A program made the translations under genes and the position numbers. Below are positions 60,209-64,000 of a stretch of DNA of 64,000 nucleotides, one piece after another (positions within the stretch are counted from its first letter, which is position 1; every line of letters starts with the position of its first letter). Origin of the DNA: Methylophilus sp. 14 (GTDB lineage Bacteria > Pseudomonadota > Gammaproteobacteria > Burkholderiales > Methylophilaceae); the NCBI RefSeq assembly GCF_015354345.1, contig NZ_JADKYS010000003.1, forward strand, positions 340,856 through 404,855, given 5' to 3'. A model generated the notes under the pieces. The model was not told where the DNA came from and made no database searches. It worked only from the letters and a program-made list of their open reading frames with translations.

Positions 60209-62725
60209 TTATCGTGCTTTTGCCTTGGGTTTGCCTTTATTTTTTTGTGCCGAATGGCGACCTTTGTCTTTGGCCGAACGCGGCTTACCTACCGCCGCCT
60301 TGCCTGTGGCTGGCTGATCATCCTGACGTCTGGCAGATTTGGCACCTGCAGCAGCTGCCTTGACGCTTGTCGATTTAGCAGCAGATTTGGGCGCCGCTGT
60401 TTTTGGTGCTGCGGCCTTGGCCCAGGCTGCAGGCGCAGTTTTCACTGGCGCATTTAACCCAGCCGATTTGGTCGCACGCCCTTTTGTGCTGACAACTGCG
60501 GCCCCTTCATCAGAGAGCCCGCCCTGCACGTCAGCCGCCCCTTCTGCGGCTGCAACCAGCGTGAAGTCTATGCGTGAAGTTTCCAAGTCCACCCGCACCA
60601 CTTTCACCGTCAAGCGGTCGCCCAGGCGATAACGTACACCGGTGCGCTCACCCACCATCTCATGACGCGCCTTATCGTGAATGAAGTAGTCATTGCCCAG
60701 ATCAGTCACGTGCAACAAGCCCTCAACGTAGACTTCGTCCAGCGCCACAAACAACCCAAAGCTGGTGACCCCGGCAACGGTGCCGCTAAACACTTCGCCA
60801 ACCTTGTCTTGCATATAAAAGCATTTGAGCCAGTTGGTCACATCACGCGTGGCATCATCAGCGCGGCGCTCAGTCATTGAACAATGCACACCTAACTGAT
60901 GCCAGTCTTTGGCCTGGTAACGCTTGCCTTCGACCACCGCCTTGATGGCGCGGTGCACCAGCAAGTCCGGATAACGGCGGATAGGCGAGGTGAAGTGTGT
61001 ATAGGCCTCATACGCCAGCCCGAAGTGGCCAACGTTATCCGGGCTATACACCGCTTGCTGCATAGAGCGCAGCATCACGGTTTGCAGCAATTGCGCATCT
61101 GGCCGCGCTTTAATGCGCTGCATCAGCTTGGCATAATCTTTGGCGCTTGGATTTTCACCGCCGCCGACACCAAAACCAAACTCGCCCATAAACAGGCGCA
61201 AGGCCTCCAGTTTCTCAGGCGTCGGACCTTCGTGGATACGGAATAAACAGGTTTGTTCGTTTTTGAGCAAAAAGTCTGCAGCACAGACGTTCGCCGCCAA
61301 CATGCACTCTTCAATCAGCTTGTGCGCGTCATTACGCACCACAGGCACAATCTTGTCGATCTTGCCGTTATCGTTAAACACCATCATGGTTTCGGTCGAT
61401 TCAAACTCCACCGCACCGCGTTTTTCGCGCTGGGTCAGCATCAACCTGAACAAGCTGTTTAAATTTTGCACATGCGGCAACAGCCAGGCGTATTCTTCCG
61501 ACAAGGCTGGATCTTCGCCCTGCAACAAGGCCGCGACCTTGGTATAGGTCATGCGCGCCTTAGACAGCATCACAGAAGGATAAAACTGGTATTGCTTGAC
61601 CACGCCCTGGCCATCGATCTGCATATCGCACACCATGCACAAGCGCTCAACATCCGGGTTCAGTGAACACAGGCCATTAGACAAGGCCTCTGGCAGCATA
61701 GGGATCACGCGGCGAGGAAAATACACCGAGTTGCCACGGTCGTACGCCTCTTTATCCAGCGCATCGCCAGGCTGCACATAAAAACTCACATCGGCAATCG
61801 CCACTACCAGGCGCCAGCCTTTGCCCTGCGGTTCGGCAAACACGGCATCATCAAAGTCACGCGCCGTTTCACCGTCAATGGTAATCAAGGCCAGATCACG
61901 CAAATCCTTGCGGCCTTTGTAATCCTTGGCCTGCACGGTTCTAGGGAAGTCTTCAGCCTGCTTGACCGCTGCCGGGTTGAATTGATGCGGCAAATGATGC
62001 TTGCGCAAAGCAATCTCAATCTCCATGCCACTGTCAGCATAGTTACCCAAAATCTCTACAATCTTGCCCATCGGGCTGGAATGCGAAGAGGGATACTCCG
62101 TCAATTCGACAGTCACAATCTGCCCGACCTGCGCGTCCATATCCAGGTGATAAGGAATCAGCACATCCTGGCTGATACGCTTGTCTTCAGCAGCGACGAT
62201 CGTCACGCCCTGTGCGCGAATCACGCGACCGACCAATGTCTTGTTGGCACGCTCCAGCACCTCAACCAGCTTGCCTTCTGGGCGACCCTTACGGTCCACG
62301 CCCGCCAGTCGCACCATGGCACGGTCACCATGCATGACCATGGTCATTTCTTTGGGGCCGAGGAAAATATCTTCAGGATTCTTGGTTTTATCGTCAGGGA
62401 CTAAAAAACCATAACCATCGGTATGGCCAAACACGGTGCCTGCAATCAGGTGAATCTTATCCGGCAGGCAAAATGCACCCTTACGGTTACGCATGAGCTG
62501 GCCATCGCGCTCCATGGCACCCAGCCTGCGGTTAAAAATGTCTCGCTCATCATGGCTGATGTCGAGCAACACATAAATCTGGTCAGCACTCAGGGGCACC
62601 CCCTGATCTGACAACAACTGCAACACCAACTCGCGACTTGGCAATGGTGTTTGGTATAACTCAGCTTCACGCTGGGCCTGCGGGTCATTTGCACGCAGGG
62701 ATTTTTTCGTTTTTCTGGTTGACAA
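60209..62725 (-). CDS. rnr: Ribonuclease R
   Basis: 838 aa 3'-5' exoribonuclease for structured RNA. It begins with TTG, supported by AAGGAAG at 8 nt, with no better ATG nearby. Helix-turn-helix-like start, cold-shock domains, then the catalytic RNB domain with LITIDGETARDFDDAVFAE (Asp cluster, about residues 280-300), an S1 domain (EVFSGTVAGVTSFGLFVALD, about 645-665) and a long Ala/Lys-rich basic tail from about 730 to the end. A tail of this kind is common in RNase R. It is divergent from tRNA-Leu by 35 bp. Confidence 0.96.
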   Translation of the reverse strand: MSTRKTKKSLRANDPQAQREAELYQTPLPSRELVLQLLSDQGVPLSADQIYVLLDISHDERDIFNRRLGAMERDGQLMRNRKGAFCLPDKIHLIAGTVFGHTDGYGFLVPDDKTKNPEDIFLGPKEMTMVMHGDRAMVRLAGVDRKGRPEGKLVEVLERANKTLVGRVIRAQGVTIVAAEDKRISQDVLIPYHLDMDAQVGQIVTVELTEYPSSHSSPMGKIVEILGNYADSGMEIEIALRKHHLPHQFNPAAVKQAEDFPRTVQAKDYKGRKDLRDLALITIDGETARDFDDAVFAEPQGKGWRLVVAIADVSFYVQPGDALDKEAYDRGNSVYFPRRVIPMLPEALSNGLCSLNPDVERLCMVCDMQIDGQGVVKQYQFYPSVMLSKARMTYTKVAALLQGEDPALSEEYAWLLPHVQNLNSLFRLMLTQREKRGAVEFESTETMMVFNDNGKIDKIVPVVRNDAHKLIEECMLAANVCAADFLLKNEQTCLFRIHEGPTPEKLEALRLFMGEFGFGVGGGENPSAKDYAKLMQRIKARPDAQLLQTVMLRSMQQAVYSPDNVGHFGLAYEAYTHFTSPIRRYPDLLVHRAIKAVVEGKRYQAKDWHQLGVHCSMTERRADDATRDVTNWLKCFYMQDKVGEVFSGTVAGVTSFGLFVALDEVYVEGLLHVTDLGNDYFIHDKARHEMVGERTGVRYRLGDRLTVKVVRVDLETSRIDFTLVAAAEGAADVQGGLSDEGAAVVSTKGRATKSAGLNAPVKTAPAAWAKAAAPKTAAPKSAAKSTSVKAAAAGAKSARRQDDQPATGKAAVGKPRSAKDKGRHSAQKNKGKPKAKAR

Positions 62726-62760
62726 TATTTATTCTTCCTTTAAAATGCACAGCTTCTTTA

Positions 62761-62845
62761 GCCCAGATGGCGAAATTGGTAGACGCGCTAGTTTCAGGTA
62801 CTAGTGTTTAACGACGTGGAGGTTCGAGTCCTCTTCTGGGCACCA
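62761..62845 (+). tRNA. tRNA-Leu (anticodon CAG)
   Basis: 85 nt with CCA encoded. Acceptor GCCCAGA pairs with TCTGGGC before ACCA. The D-arm contains AATTGGTAGACGC, the anticodon stem CTAGT/ACTAG encloses loop TTCAGGT (anticodon CAG), a long variable arm is present as expected for a class-II tRNA, and the T-arm is GAGGTTCGAGTCCTC. Confidence 0.96.
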
Positions 62846-63385
62846 TCAAGCAGCTTTTCAGCTGCGCCAAATCTAGATTCCCAAGCACTCAATTTGTTTC
62901 GTTTTTGAATAATTGCTTTTGCTTCTTGTTGAATCATCATGGTCACAGTTTAACATCTTTCATGTTTGAGGCTGATTAAACTTTAACTCTACTGCAAACA
63001 CACATTGCACAGACCTCGGTGTCTTCTTCGTGCTGACTATCTATCACGCCTGTAACACATATCGGCAAATGACCTTTGTCACAAATACGCCCACGCTTTA
63101 ACCACGCTTTCTAGCATGACTCGATGCCAATCAATTTGATCTTTTTAGCCATCGCGTGAAATGCAGATATTCATAGCCCTCCAAAATTAACTTGTATTAA
63201 TTTAAGTTTATATTTAACATTAATTAACACTTTGAATAAGCATCGAAGTGGGTCCCGTCAGCAGTGCACTCATTTAATCAGGCGCAAATGACGTTTCAAG
63301 GTAATTCAGGGCGCAATCACAACCGTGGCGAAACACTAAAACGGTCAGCAAACTGAGTTCATGTTAACTTTTGAAGAGGTAAAAT
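62846..63385. other. 540-bp gene-poor AT-rich stretch between tRNA-Leu and the leader-peptide gene
   Basis: No intact gene. A short hairpin (GCAGC/GCTGC) follows the tRNA at about 62850. A minus frame of 59 codons (62976-63152) reads MAKKIKLIGIESC, an in-frame TAG at 63113-63111, then a Cys-rich stretch ending CAMCVCSRVKV and stops; no ribosome site, so it is at best a decayed small gene. A strongly AT-rich segment (63180-63240) precedes the peptide gene and may hold its promoter. Confidence 0.55.
63192..63220 (+). promoter_or_regulatory. Possible promoter of the leader-peptide gene
   Basis: TTGTAT (63192-63197) and TAACAT (63215-63220) with 17-bp spacing in an AT-rich stretch, implying a 5' leader of about 160 nt. 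By eye only. Confidence 0.35.
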
Positions 63386-63628
63386 ATGGCTATCAATCAG
63401 CTTTCCCAACCTGAAATACAAACCATTTCTGGCGGCTCACAGTTTTTCCCAGGCTATCCGTACAACCCATTTGTCATGGGCAGCGTATTTAGCGTTTTTA
63501 ATCAACCCGGCATTAACTATGGGCCAATCTCATGGTACAACCCAGGTTGTGCACCAGCACCAAGCCCATGCACGCCTCCCCCACCGCCACCATGTGGGTC
63601 ATGCTCACCAAGCAATCATGACCACTAA
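63386..63628 (+). CDS. Small peptide with a double-glycine leader, possible bacteriocin-like or secreted peptide
   Basis: 80 aa, ATG with GAGG 8 nt upstream. Residues 1-17 are MAINQLSQPEIQTISGG, an exact match to the double-glycine export leader: L at -12, S at -11, E at -8, I at -7, I at -4, GG at -2/-1. The 63-aa remainder is aromatic- and proline-rich at first (FFPGYPYNPFV), then has four Cys at 55, 62, 70 and 73 around a run of six Pro, and ends HDH. The leader predicts cleavage by a C39-peptidase ABC exporter, but none is adjacent and the transporter 4 kb away lacks that domain. Bacteriocin, signalling peptide or secreted surface peptide remain possible. Confidence 0.75.
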   Translation: MAINQLSQPEIQTISGGSQFFPGYPYNPFVMGSVFSVFNQPGINYGPISWYNPGCAPAPSPCTPPPPPPCGSCSPSNHDH

Positions 63629-63731
63629 ACCCATGACCACTAAATTAAGTCACAAAACGTCAATCATCCATGCATAGTTACCATTGAGATATTGACAGCC
63701 ATTAATTGAGTAGAAAATCACTTGTTAAAAC

Positions 63732-63760
63732 AAAAAGCCCCTGAATTCAGGGGCTTTTTT
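63732..63760. terminator. Bidirectional terminator
   Basis: AAAAAGCCCCTGAA/TTCAGGGGCTTTTTT forms a perfect dyad with A-run and T-run, between the peptide gene and the minus-strand PEP-CTERM gene. Confidence 0.93.
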
Positions 63761-63791
63761 ATATCACTGCTTTTTATATGACCTGGCCGAA

Positions 63792-64000
63792 CTACAGGCG
63801 ACGGCGTGAAAGCCCCATGAGCGCACCCAAGCCTAGCAGCATCATTAAGGAGGAAGAAGCTTCTGGCACCGGCGTGACAGTGGCTGATGCATAAGAATGC
63901 CCAACGGTAATGCACAAATCGGTCGTGGCTGAAAGATTAGCAAGCCCTAACAAGCCTAATGAATTTATGCCAATCTCGTCCAGCGTAATTTGCAGGGCAT
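63792..64000 (-). CDS. PEP-CTERM sorting-signal protein (partial, C-terminus only)
   Basis: The last 69 residues of a minus-strand protein whose beginning lies outside the window. The end reads TVTPVPEASSSLMMLLGLGA followed by LMGLSRRRL and stop: VPEA box, hydrophobic helix and arginine cluster, the PEP-CTERM signal recognised by exosortases, which cleave and attach or release secreted proteins. The VPEAS variant is common in betaproteobacteria. EpsL/EpsB at the left edge point to an exosortase-B locus in this genome, which is not itself visible here. Confidence 0.9.
   Translation of the reverse strand, partial: ALQITLDEIGINSLGLLGLANLSATTDLCITVGHSYASATVTPVPEASSSLMMLLGLGALMGLSRRRL

Follow-up and report, generated by a model that had tools for sequence, protein, structure and literature searches.

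A double-glycine-leader peptide gene beside tRNA-Leu in Methylophilus sp. 14, a probable cargo of a C39 exporter encoded elsewhere

The peptide gene and the tRNA-Leu site

In the window (the whole 64,000-nucleotide stretch of Methylophilus sp. 14 DNA that was analysed), a gene for an 80-aa precursor lies, as the earlier note had placed it, between a tRNA-Leu gene and a PEP-CTERM-like gene on the opposite strand (Table 1). The precursor consists of the leader MAINQLSQPEIQTISGG and a core that starts with SQFFPGYPYNPF and ends in CGSCSPSNHDH. Excerpts of PMC6959990 and PMC6363468 give L(-12)xxxE(-8)L(-7)xxxxGG as the leader consensus for C39 (PCAT) substrates. With Leu(-12), Glu(-8), Ile(-7), Ile(-4), and GG(-2/-1), the window leader agrees with the PCAT consensus (PMC6959990), and the initial claim that it carries every conserved double-glycine position holds. 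The predicted core of 63 residues contains 16 Pro, 10 aromatic residues, 4 Cys, and a single residue among D/E/K/R. Its C-terminal tail has the spacing C-x6-C-x7-C-x2-C with NHDH as the final residues, and the run of six prolines, the four cysteines, and the HDH end described before are all present. The core had also been called unlike known bacteriocins. The peptide matched no Pfam or NCBIfam family at E up to 10, the RiPP-type leader families (Nif11 / NHLP) included, and gave no PHROGs match. A PDB sequence search returned a sole match at E 0.49, and AlphaFold2 gave, at low confidence, a model with no secondary structure (pLDDT 51, pTM 0.13). No published description of the peptide was recognised in the part of the literature surveyed.

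Table 1 Features in and around the peptide gene, in window coordinates
Feature	Position	Strand	Basis or remark
tRNA-Leu (CAG), left border of variable site	62761..62845	+	Site compared across genomes
AT-rich upstream element, repeated TTAAC/GTTAA	63184..63229	+	Conserved before 5/6 family genes
Second conserved upstream block AAATGACGTTT	63286..63296	+	Alignment of five copies
Ribosome-binding-site-like AAGAGG	63374..63379	+	Sequence reading; purine-rich stretch likewise placed in relatives
Double-glycine-leader peptide gene, 80-aa precursor	63386..63628	+	ORF; homologues in 4/22 genus genomes; dN/dS
17-aa double-glycine leader MAINQLSQPEIQTISGG	63386..63436	+	L(-12), E(-8), I(-7), I(-4), GG; PCAT consensus
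Predicted 63-aa mature peptide	63437..63625	+	Aromatic/Pro/Gly half, then Cys tail
Inverted repeat AAAAAGCCCCTG-AATT-CAGGGGCTTTTTT between convergent genes	63732..63760	.	Sequence reading
PEP-CTERM-like gene, 3' part, convergent, leaves window	63792..64000	-	Full ORF L020:6648-7619

A strict leader pattern, composed with knowledge of the window leader, is found a single time in the 64-kb window and in none of 60 dinucleotide shuffles. The double-glycine leader in six of six homologues provides what we consider a stronger argument against chance than this shuffle test, and homologues, dN/dS (see below), and dinucleotide shuffles together rule out a chance ORF.

The PEP-CTERM-like protein scores 23.9 bits against PF07589 (cut-off 20.7) and 14.4 bits against TIGR02595, below the cut-off of 16. 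At E<=1e-20 its gene is found in four of the 22 Methylophilus genomes, the same four that carry the peptide gene, and the two genes are convergent in all of them, with two transposase-like ORFs between them in one (G008). The inverted repeat between the convergent genes is likely a two-way terminator; a terminator scan listed no site at its position. At gathering threshold, the tRNA was the only RNA feature in 62700-64000.

The tRNA-Leu site was inspected in 20 of the 22 genomes, G013 and G018 being left out as they gave no rnr match. In six genomes (G001, G002, G005, G010, G017, and G021) a conserved gene, u122, lies 0.16-1.0 kb past the tRNA, and neither the peptide gene nor the PEP-CTERM-like gene is matched in between. 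This same u122 follows the peptide/PEP-CTERM-like pair in the sp. 14 genome (G000) and is absent from the fetched stretch in eight others (G003, G004, G006, G009, G011, G012, G019, and G020); no tRNA was seen at the site in G014. The site in G015 spans 3.9 kb and contains, in place of the peptide gene, two ORFs that look by eye like a recombinase and a transposase (L080:1663-4145); it is because of these ORFs that we regard the tRNA-Leu site as a variable spot. A two-component system, its domains checked in G007 only, follows the PEP-CTERM-like gene in the remaining carriers G007, G008, and G016, and beyond it lies a gene for an efflux-type outer-membrane protein in G007 and G016, the G008 stretch stopping short of this point. 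Reading further in G007 (Methylophilus sp. 42; L004:12826-19254), we recognised by eye a response regulator, an efflux outer-membrane protein, an adaptor, and a large RND-type-looking transporter; these efflux genes are not at the corresponding place in the sp. 14 genome.

Peptide family, C39 exporter, and other leader-bearing peptides

Clear homologues of the peptide gene occur in four of the 22 Methylophilus genomes: the source genome G000, G007, G008, and G016. G004 and G018 gave weak matches only (E about 0.02), which were dismissed because no GG-leader ORF was seen at either. At the scale of the taxonomic family the gene was found in 4 of 187 genomes, and a search of named-genome contigs gave at least two loci, in Methylophilus sp. 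42 and Methylophilus sp. QUAN among the matches listed; a methylotroph host, as first supposed, fits these carriers. The order-level draw contained the gene in 1 of 399 genomes, that one being sp. 14 itself; because the other three carriers have no row there, they were evidently not drawn, and this figure informs on more distant groups only. A tblastn search with the window peptide gave no match in the phage and plasmid collections, the long copy from G008 gave none in the plasmid collection, and none of 10 pattern hits in viral contigs was confirmed, so that a phage or plasmid origin is unsupported by these searches.

As G007 and G008 each hold a tandem pair, the family comprises six genes in the four carriers. 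All six keep MAINQL, Gln8, Glu10, Gln12, Ser15, and GG, and the leader positions whose loss in homologues would have told against the initial reading are retained: Leu(-12), Glu(-8), and GG in six of six and Ser(-11) (Ser7) in five, with Thr in the remaining one. Position -7 is Thr in five members and Ile in the window copy. Four members are long, with the tail CTPPPPP(P)CGSC[SQ]PSNHDH (one with an extra Gly), and two are short and lack the tail; in one long copy the FFPG module is absent, with a Gly/His-rich linker in its place, and one family core contains 6 His. For the three full-length orthologues the whole-gene dN/dS values are 0.05, 0.11, and 0.10 (dS 1.0-1.7), and across the 15 possible pairings of the six genes they range from 0.05 to 0.50, the maximum being that of the two G008 copies, which differ in their cores; all were obtained with a simple counting method on short sequences.

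The gene had been described as an orphan, which is true only locally: no C39 exporter is adjacent, and an exporter is encoded elsewhere in the genome. In the Methylophilus sp. 14 genome, Peptidase_C39 is matched once, at 126.7 bits, on contig C10, which is not the contig of the peptide gene. The match belongs to a 707-aa transporter in which a C39 domain is combined with the membrane and ATPase domains of an ABC protein and whose alignment with PCAT1 spans residues 20 to 699. The gene order is HlyD-type adaptor, C39-ABC transporter, TolC-type protein. All three proteins pass their Pfam cut-offs and all three fall below the NCBIfam subfamily cut-offs. About 1.5 kb before this operon, beyond a porin-like ORF, there is another PEP-CTERM-like ORF (L015:9050-9616, end VPEPESYGLLMAGLGLVGFAARRKTSK).

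Across the 22 genomes, any C39 match at E<=0.001 was found in 18 and the strong class in eight. The search gave 29 rows, nine strong (two of them a single G021 gene split across two contig ends) and 20 weak. Cys, His, and Asp stand at places aligned with the PCAT1 catalytic residues in all seven intact strong transporters. Of the 20 weak rows, 13 were aligned with the strong class. Nine of these have the length of a transporter (718-749 aa) and no catalytic Cys, a trait of degenerate C39-like domains; the other four, frames of 325-362 aa, keep the QCG Cys with His and Asp nearby, are too short to be C39-ABC transporters, and may be other peptidases. In our judgement, none of the 20 weak matches counts as an exporter of the peptides described here. 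A strong catalytic-type C39 ABC transporter, whose absence from carriers the earlier note had held fatal to its proposal, is present in four of four, and the probability that all four fall among the eight strong-C39 genomes of the 22 is 0.0096, relatedness ignored. In the single-contig genomes G007 and G008, the peptide-to-exporter distance is about 1.72 and 1.75 Mb along the contig. The co-occurrence counts overstate independence, because the carriers are near kin (98-99% identity over 500 aa of rnr) and because G015, 98% identical in rnr, has the exporter without the peptide.

Approximately 190 bases past the exporter operon on contig C10 lies the gene for a MAIQ-type GG peptide (L015:16186-16416), in which MAIQSLKKVEVEAVSGG precedes a hydrophobic, glycine-rich core that is rich in glycine zippers and Cdz-like in composition. 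All eight strong-C39 genomes have this GG peptide or a relative of it, its leader closely similar, next to the exporter, and the window leader and the exporter-linked leader are identical in length and register. A leader-only model, built from 14 leaders drawn from these same genomes, matched five peptides in the sp. 14 genome at E up to 10: the exporter-linked peptide, the window gene, two MREL peptides (C1:986542 and C1:986952), and one at C9:166447, the last being absent from the training set. At genus scale (E<=0.01) it found 29 leaders in eight genomes, exactly the strong-C39 set, and no match in the remaining 14, four of which are under 90% complete. Manual sorting gave 10 MAIQ, 8 MREL, 5 MAMH, and 6 window-type leaders. 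The cores of 23 of these peptides are hydrophobic and glycine-rich; a Pro/aromatic core is found only in the six window-family members, four of them with the Cys/His tail. Four peptide types dispersed on the chromosome, one of them with a distinct core, appear to share a single C39 exporter. Exporter-adjacent searches alone would miss such distant cargos, which the whole-genome leader model found.

The two MREL peptides (L016:8543-8758 and L016:8953-9150, contig C1) have hydrophobic cores and lie behind an ORF that looks smpB-like by eye; MREL relatives occur in 5 of the 22 genomes, each with a strong C39 exporter. The peptide at C9:166447 begins MAMHELNAVEVDVVSGG (L099:1502-1758), and similar ones occur in G007, G008, G015, and G016.

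The AT-rich element upstream of the window gene is a candidate promoter or operator, and the one family gene that lacks it is the second in a tandem pair. A degenerate pattern of the element has a single match in the sp. 14 genome at up to 3 mismatches. The element is partially matched before some of the other GG peptide genes, and in one of the five AAATGACGTTT copies ATT replaces the first T-run of GTTT. The 13-mer AATTAACTTGTTT is found exactly in the G007 element and upstream of the exporter-linked MAIQ peptide, and with 1 mismatch in the window copy. In sp. 14, TTAAC/GTTAA words (observed; shuffle mean) are above shuffles for the window gene (5; 1.0), MAMH (6; 1.5), and MREL2 (4; 1.0), with a weak excess or none for MAIQ (3; 0.95), PEP (3; 0.86), the exporter (2; 0.71), and MREL1 (1; 1.1). 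We also compared two versions of the element with 34 controls, 12 of them AT-rich, the exporter upstream itself being included. The number of controls scoring at least as high as the target was 0 for MAIQ and for MAMH, which thus beat all 34, and 1-2 for the exporter, 0-2 for MREL2, 1-6 for MREL1, and 4-5 for PEP, none of which did so in both versions. A sigma-70 scan found one site against a shuffle mean of 1.7, no excess. For several genes the link through the upstream motif is weak, and a shared promoter motif or common regulator of exporter and cargos is suggestive only.

Probable export and possible roles of the peptide

The peptide belongs to a new and narrowly distributed family, probably cargo of an already known exporter kind. 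We propose that the 17-aa leader would be recognised by the C39 peptidase domain of the distant ABC exporter, composed of HlyD-like adaptor, C39-ABC transporter, and TolC-like outer-membrane protein, and that cleavage after Gly17 would set the 63-aa peptide free outside. From sequence and co-occurrence, such cleavage and export in trans are very probable. Export in trans, already put forward in the earlier note, is well supported because a similar leader lies beside the exporter and because the genomes found by the leader model are the strong-C39 genomes; the matching leaders and the C39 transporter in all four carriers speak for it. Counted against it is Thr(-7) in five of six family members, as the available text of PMC6959990 reports that Leu(-7) matters for binding to PCAT1.

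Once outside, the aromatic/Pro/Gly half of the peptide could drive association, and the C-terminal Cys4/His tail could cross-link it via disulfides or metal. A function at the cell surface or in the biofilm matrix is a tentative assignment, to which we give slightly less than an even chance; composition, sequence constraint (the low dN/dS), and the precedent of the EbfG peptides of Synechococcus point to it, as does the lack of an immunity candidate among the small hydrophobic ORFs scanned for in 6.5 kb, and the resemblance of the other cargos to bacteriocins counts against it. Taken as a whole, an exported surface or matrix peptide is the explanation that we favour, and we hold it to be about evenly poised, with a bacteriocin as its main rival.

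According to this rival, the peptide would be a class II microcin-like bacteriocin sent out by the same exporter, perhaps acting as a pair of short and long tandem copies, with immunity provided elsewhere or unneeded. We consider this unlikely, though it has several points in its favour: it is well established that microcins and class II bacteriocins typically carry GG leaders (see also excerpts of PMC13174018), the cores of the 23 other leader-bearing peptides look bacteriocin-like in being hydrophobic and glycine-rich, two of the four carrier genomes have a tandem pair, and the gene sits in a variable site at tRNA-Leu. However, the core of the window peptide has a GRAVY of -0.39, as compared with +1.47, +1.03, and +1.01 in single examples of the three other cargo types, and the window copy lacks a glycine zipper. 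The low dN/dS and the lack of tblastn matches in the phage and plasmid collections also argue against a bacteriocin, and the clustering frequent among such genes is not seen, the exporter being on another contig in sp. 14 and 1.7 Mb off in two single-contig relatives. A scan of 6.5 kb around the gene for small hydrophobic ORFs, which soluble immunity proteins would escape, found three, of which the only one with a ribosome site resembles a secreted protein with a signal peptide, and no immunity-like membrane ORF.

It could also be imagined that the peptide binds copper, nickel, or zinc outside the cell through its Cys4/His tail, as a scavenger or for protection. Cys4 and NHDH are present in all four long members, and the core with 6 His would suit such a role. 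The same is true of the two-component system past the PEP-CTERM-like gene in three of four carriers, of the efflux outer-membrane protein in two of these three, and of the adaptor and large transporter, RND-type by eye, in the one genome read further. Nevertheless, the tail is absent from two of six family members, and sp. 14 has other genes at the two-component/efflux position. We regard this role as improbable, and metal binding by the tail is itself a guess. Finally, it seems very improbable that the gene encodes the precursor of a modified peptide (RiPP) or of a signalling peptide: RiPPs and pheromones also use GG leaders (excerpts of PMC6363468) and Cys and Tyr could be modified, but inspection by eye of the gene's neighbours and of the exporter locus revealed no recognisable modification enzyme, and neither Pfam nor NCBIfam gave a leader match for the window peptide.

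To return to the surface or matrix peptide, one could speculate further on a lineage-specific two-part assembly encoded at the variable tRNA-Leu site, in which the GG peptide sent out by the exporter would meet the PEP-CTERM-like protein, delivered by another route, at the cell surface, and the Cys/His tail would cross-link the two or capture metal. The same exporter, partly under common TTAAC/GTTAA-type control, would then serve bacteriocin-like and structural peptides alike. This extended scheme is doubtful, and we would not expect it to hold in full.

Comparison with known systems

In PCAT1/CtA and LahT, leaders are recognised at -12, -8, -7, -4, and GG (excerpts of PMC6959990 and PMC6363468), as would be the case here. 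Those are Gram-positive systems, however, and the present family differs from them by its frequent Thr(-7). The microcin V system of E. coli, one of the class II microcins, likewise combines a GG leader with a C39 peptidase transporter, an adaptor, and TolC. For class II microcins, the peptide is often encoded together with its transporter, adaptor, and immunity protein (PMC13174018, in excerpt), whereas here the exporter is distant and no immunity candidate was seen in the 6.5-kb scan.

The contact-dependent Cdz system of Caulobacter also pairs a type I exporter with small peptides whose leaders have GG-like ends. PMC5380434, in excerpt, describes Cdz candidates as 60-151 residues long, with a leader end G[G/A/S], and encoded no more than about 10 kb from the exporter. 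At 80 aa and with GG, the window peptide falls within the size and leader ranges, but its exporter is on a different contig rather than within ~10 kb. It also differs in having no adjacent small membrane ORF and no glycine zipper: two patterns gave 0 matches in the window copy, and the looser one gave 4, 2, and 1 matches in three of five relatives. Cdz is the nearest system known to us for the MAIQ cargo, which is glycine-zipper rich; the MREL cargos gave 0 zipper matches.

The favoured reading has its precedent in EbfG1-4 and PteB of Synechococcus elongatus. The EbfG peptides are small GG-leader proteins whose export is helped by a C39 transporter that needs its Cys; they are required for biofilm and occur at the surface as well as in the matrix, with EbfG4 found at both places and EbfG1-3 forming amyloid (excerpts of PMC4997328 and PMC9981879). 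Two of the three mature-start fragments of EbfG quoted in these excerpts are Tyr/Pro-rich. The likeness is one of description, and the EbfG system differs in being cyanobacterial and in having its peptide and transporter genes close together (PMC4997328, PMC9981879, in excerpt). A structural role for the Methylophilus peptide, if borne out, would extend to the Proteobacteria the part that GG peptides are known to play in Synechococcus biofilm.
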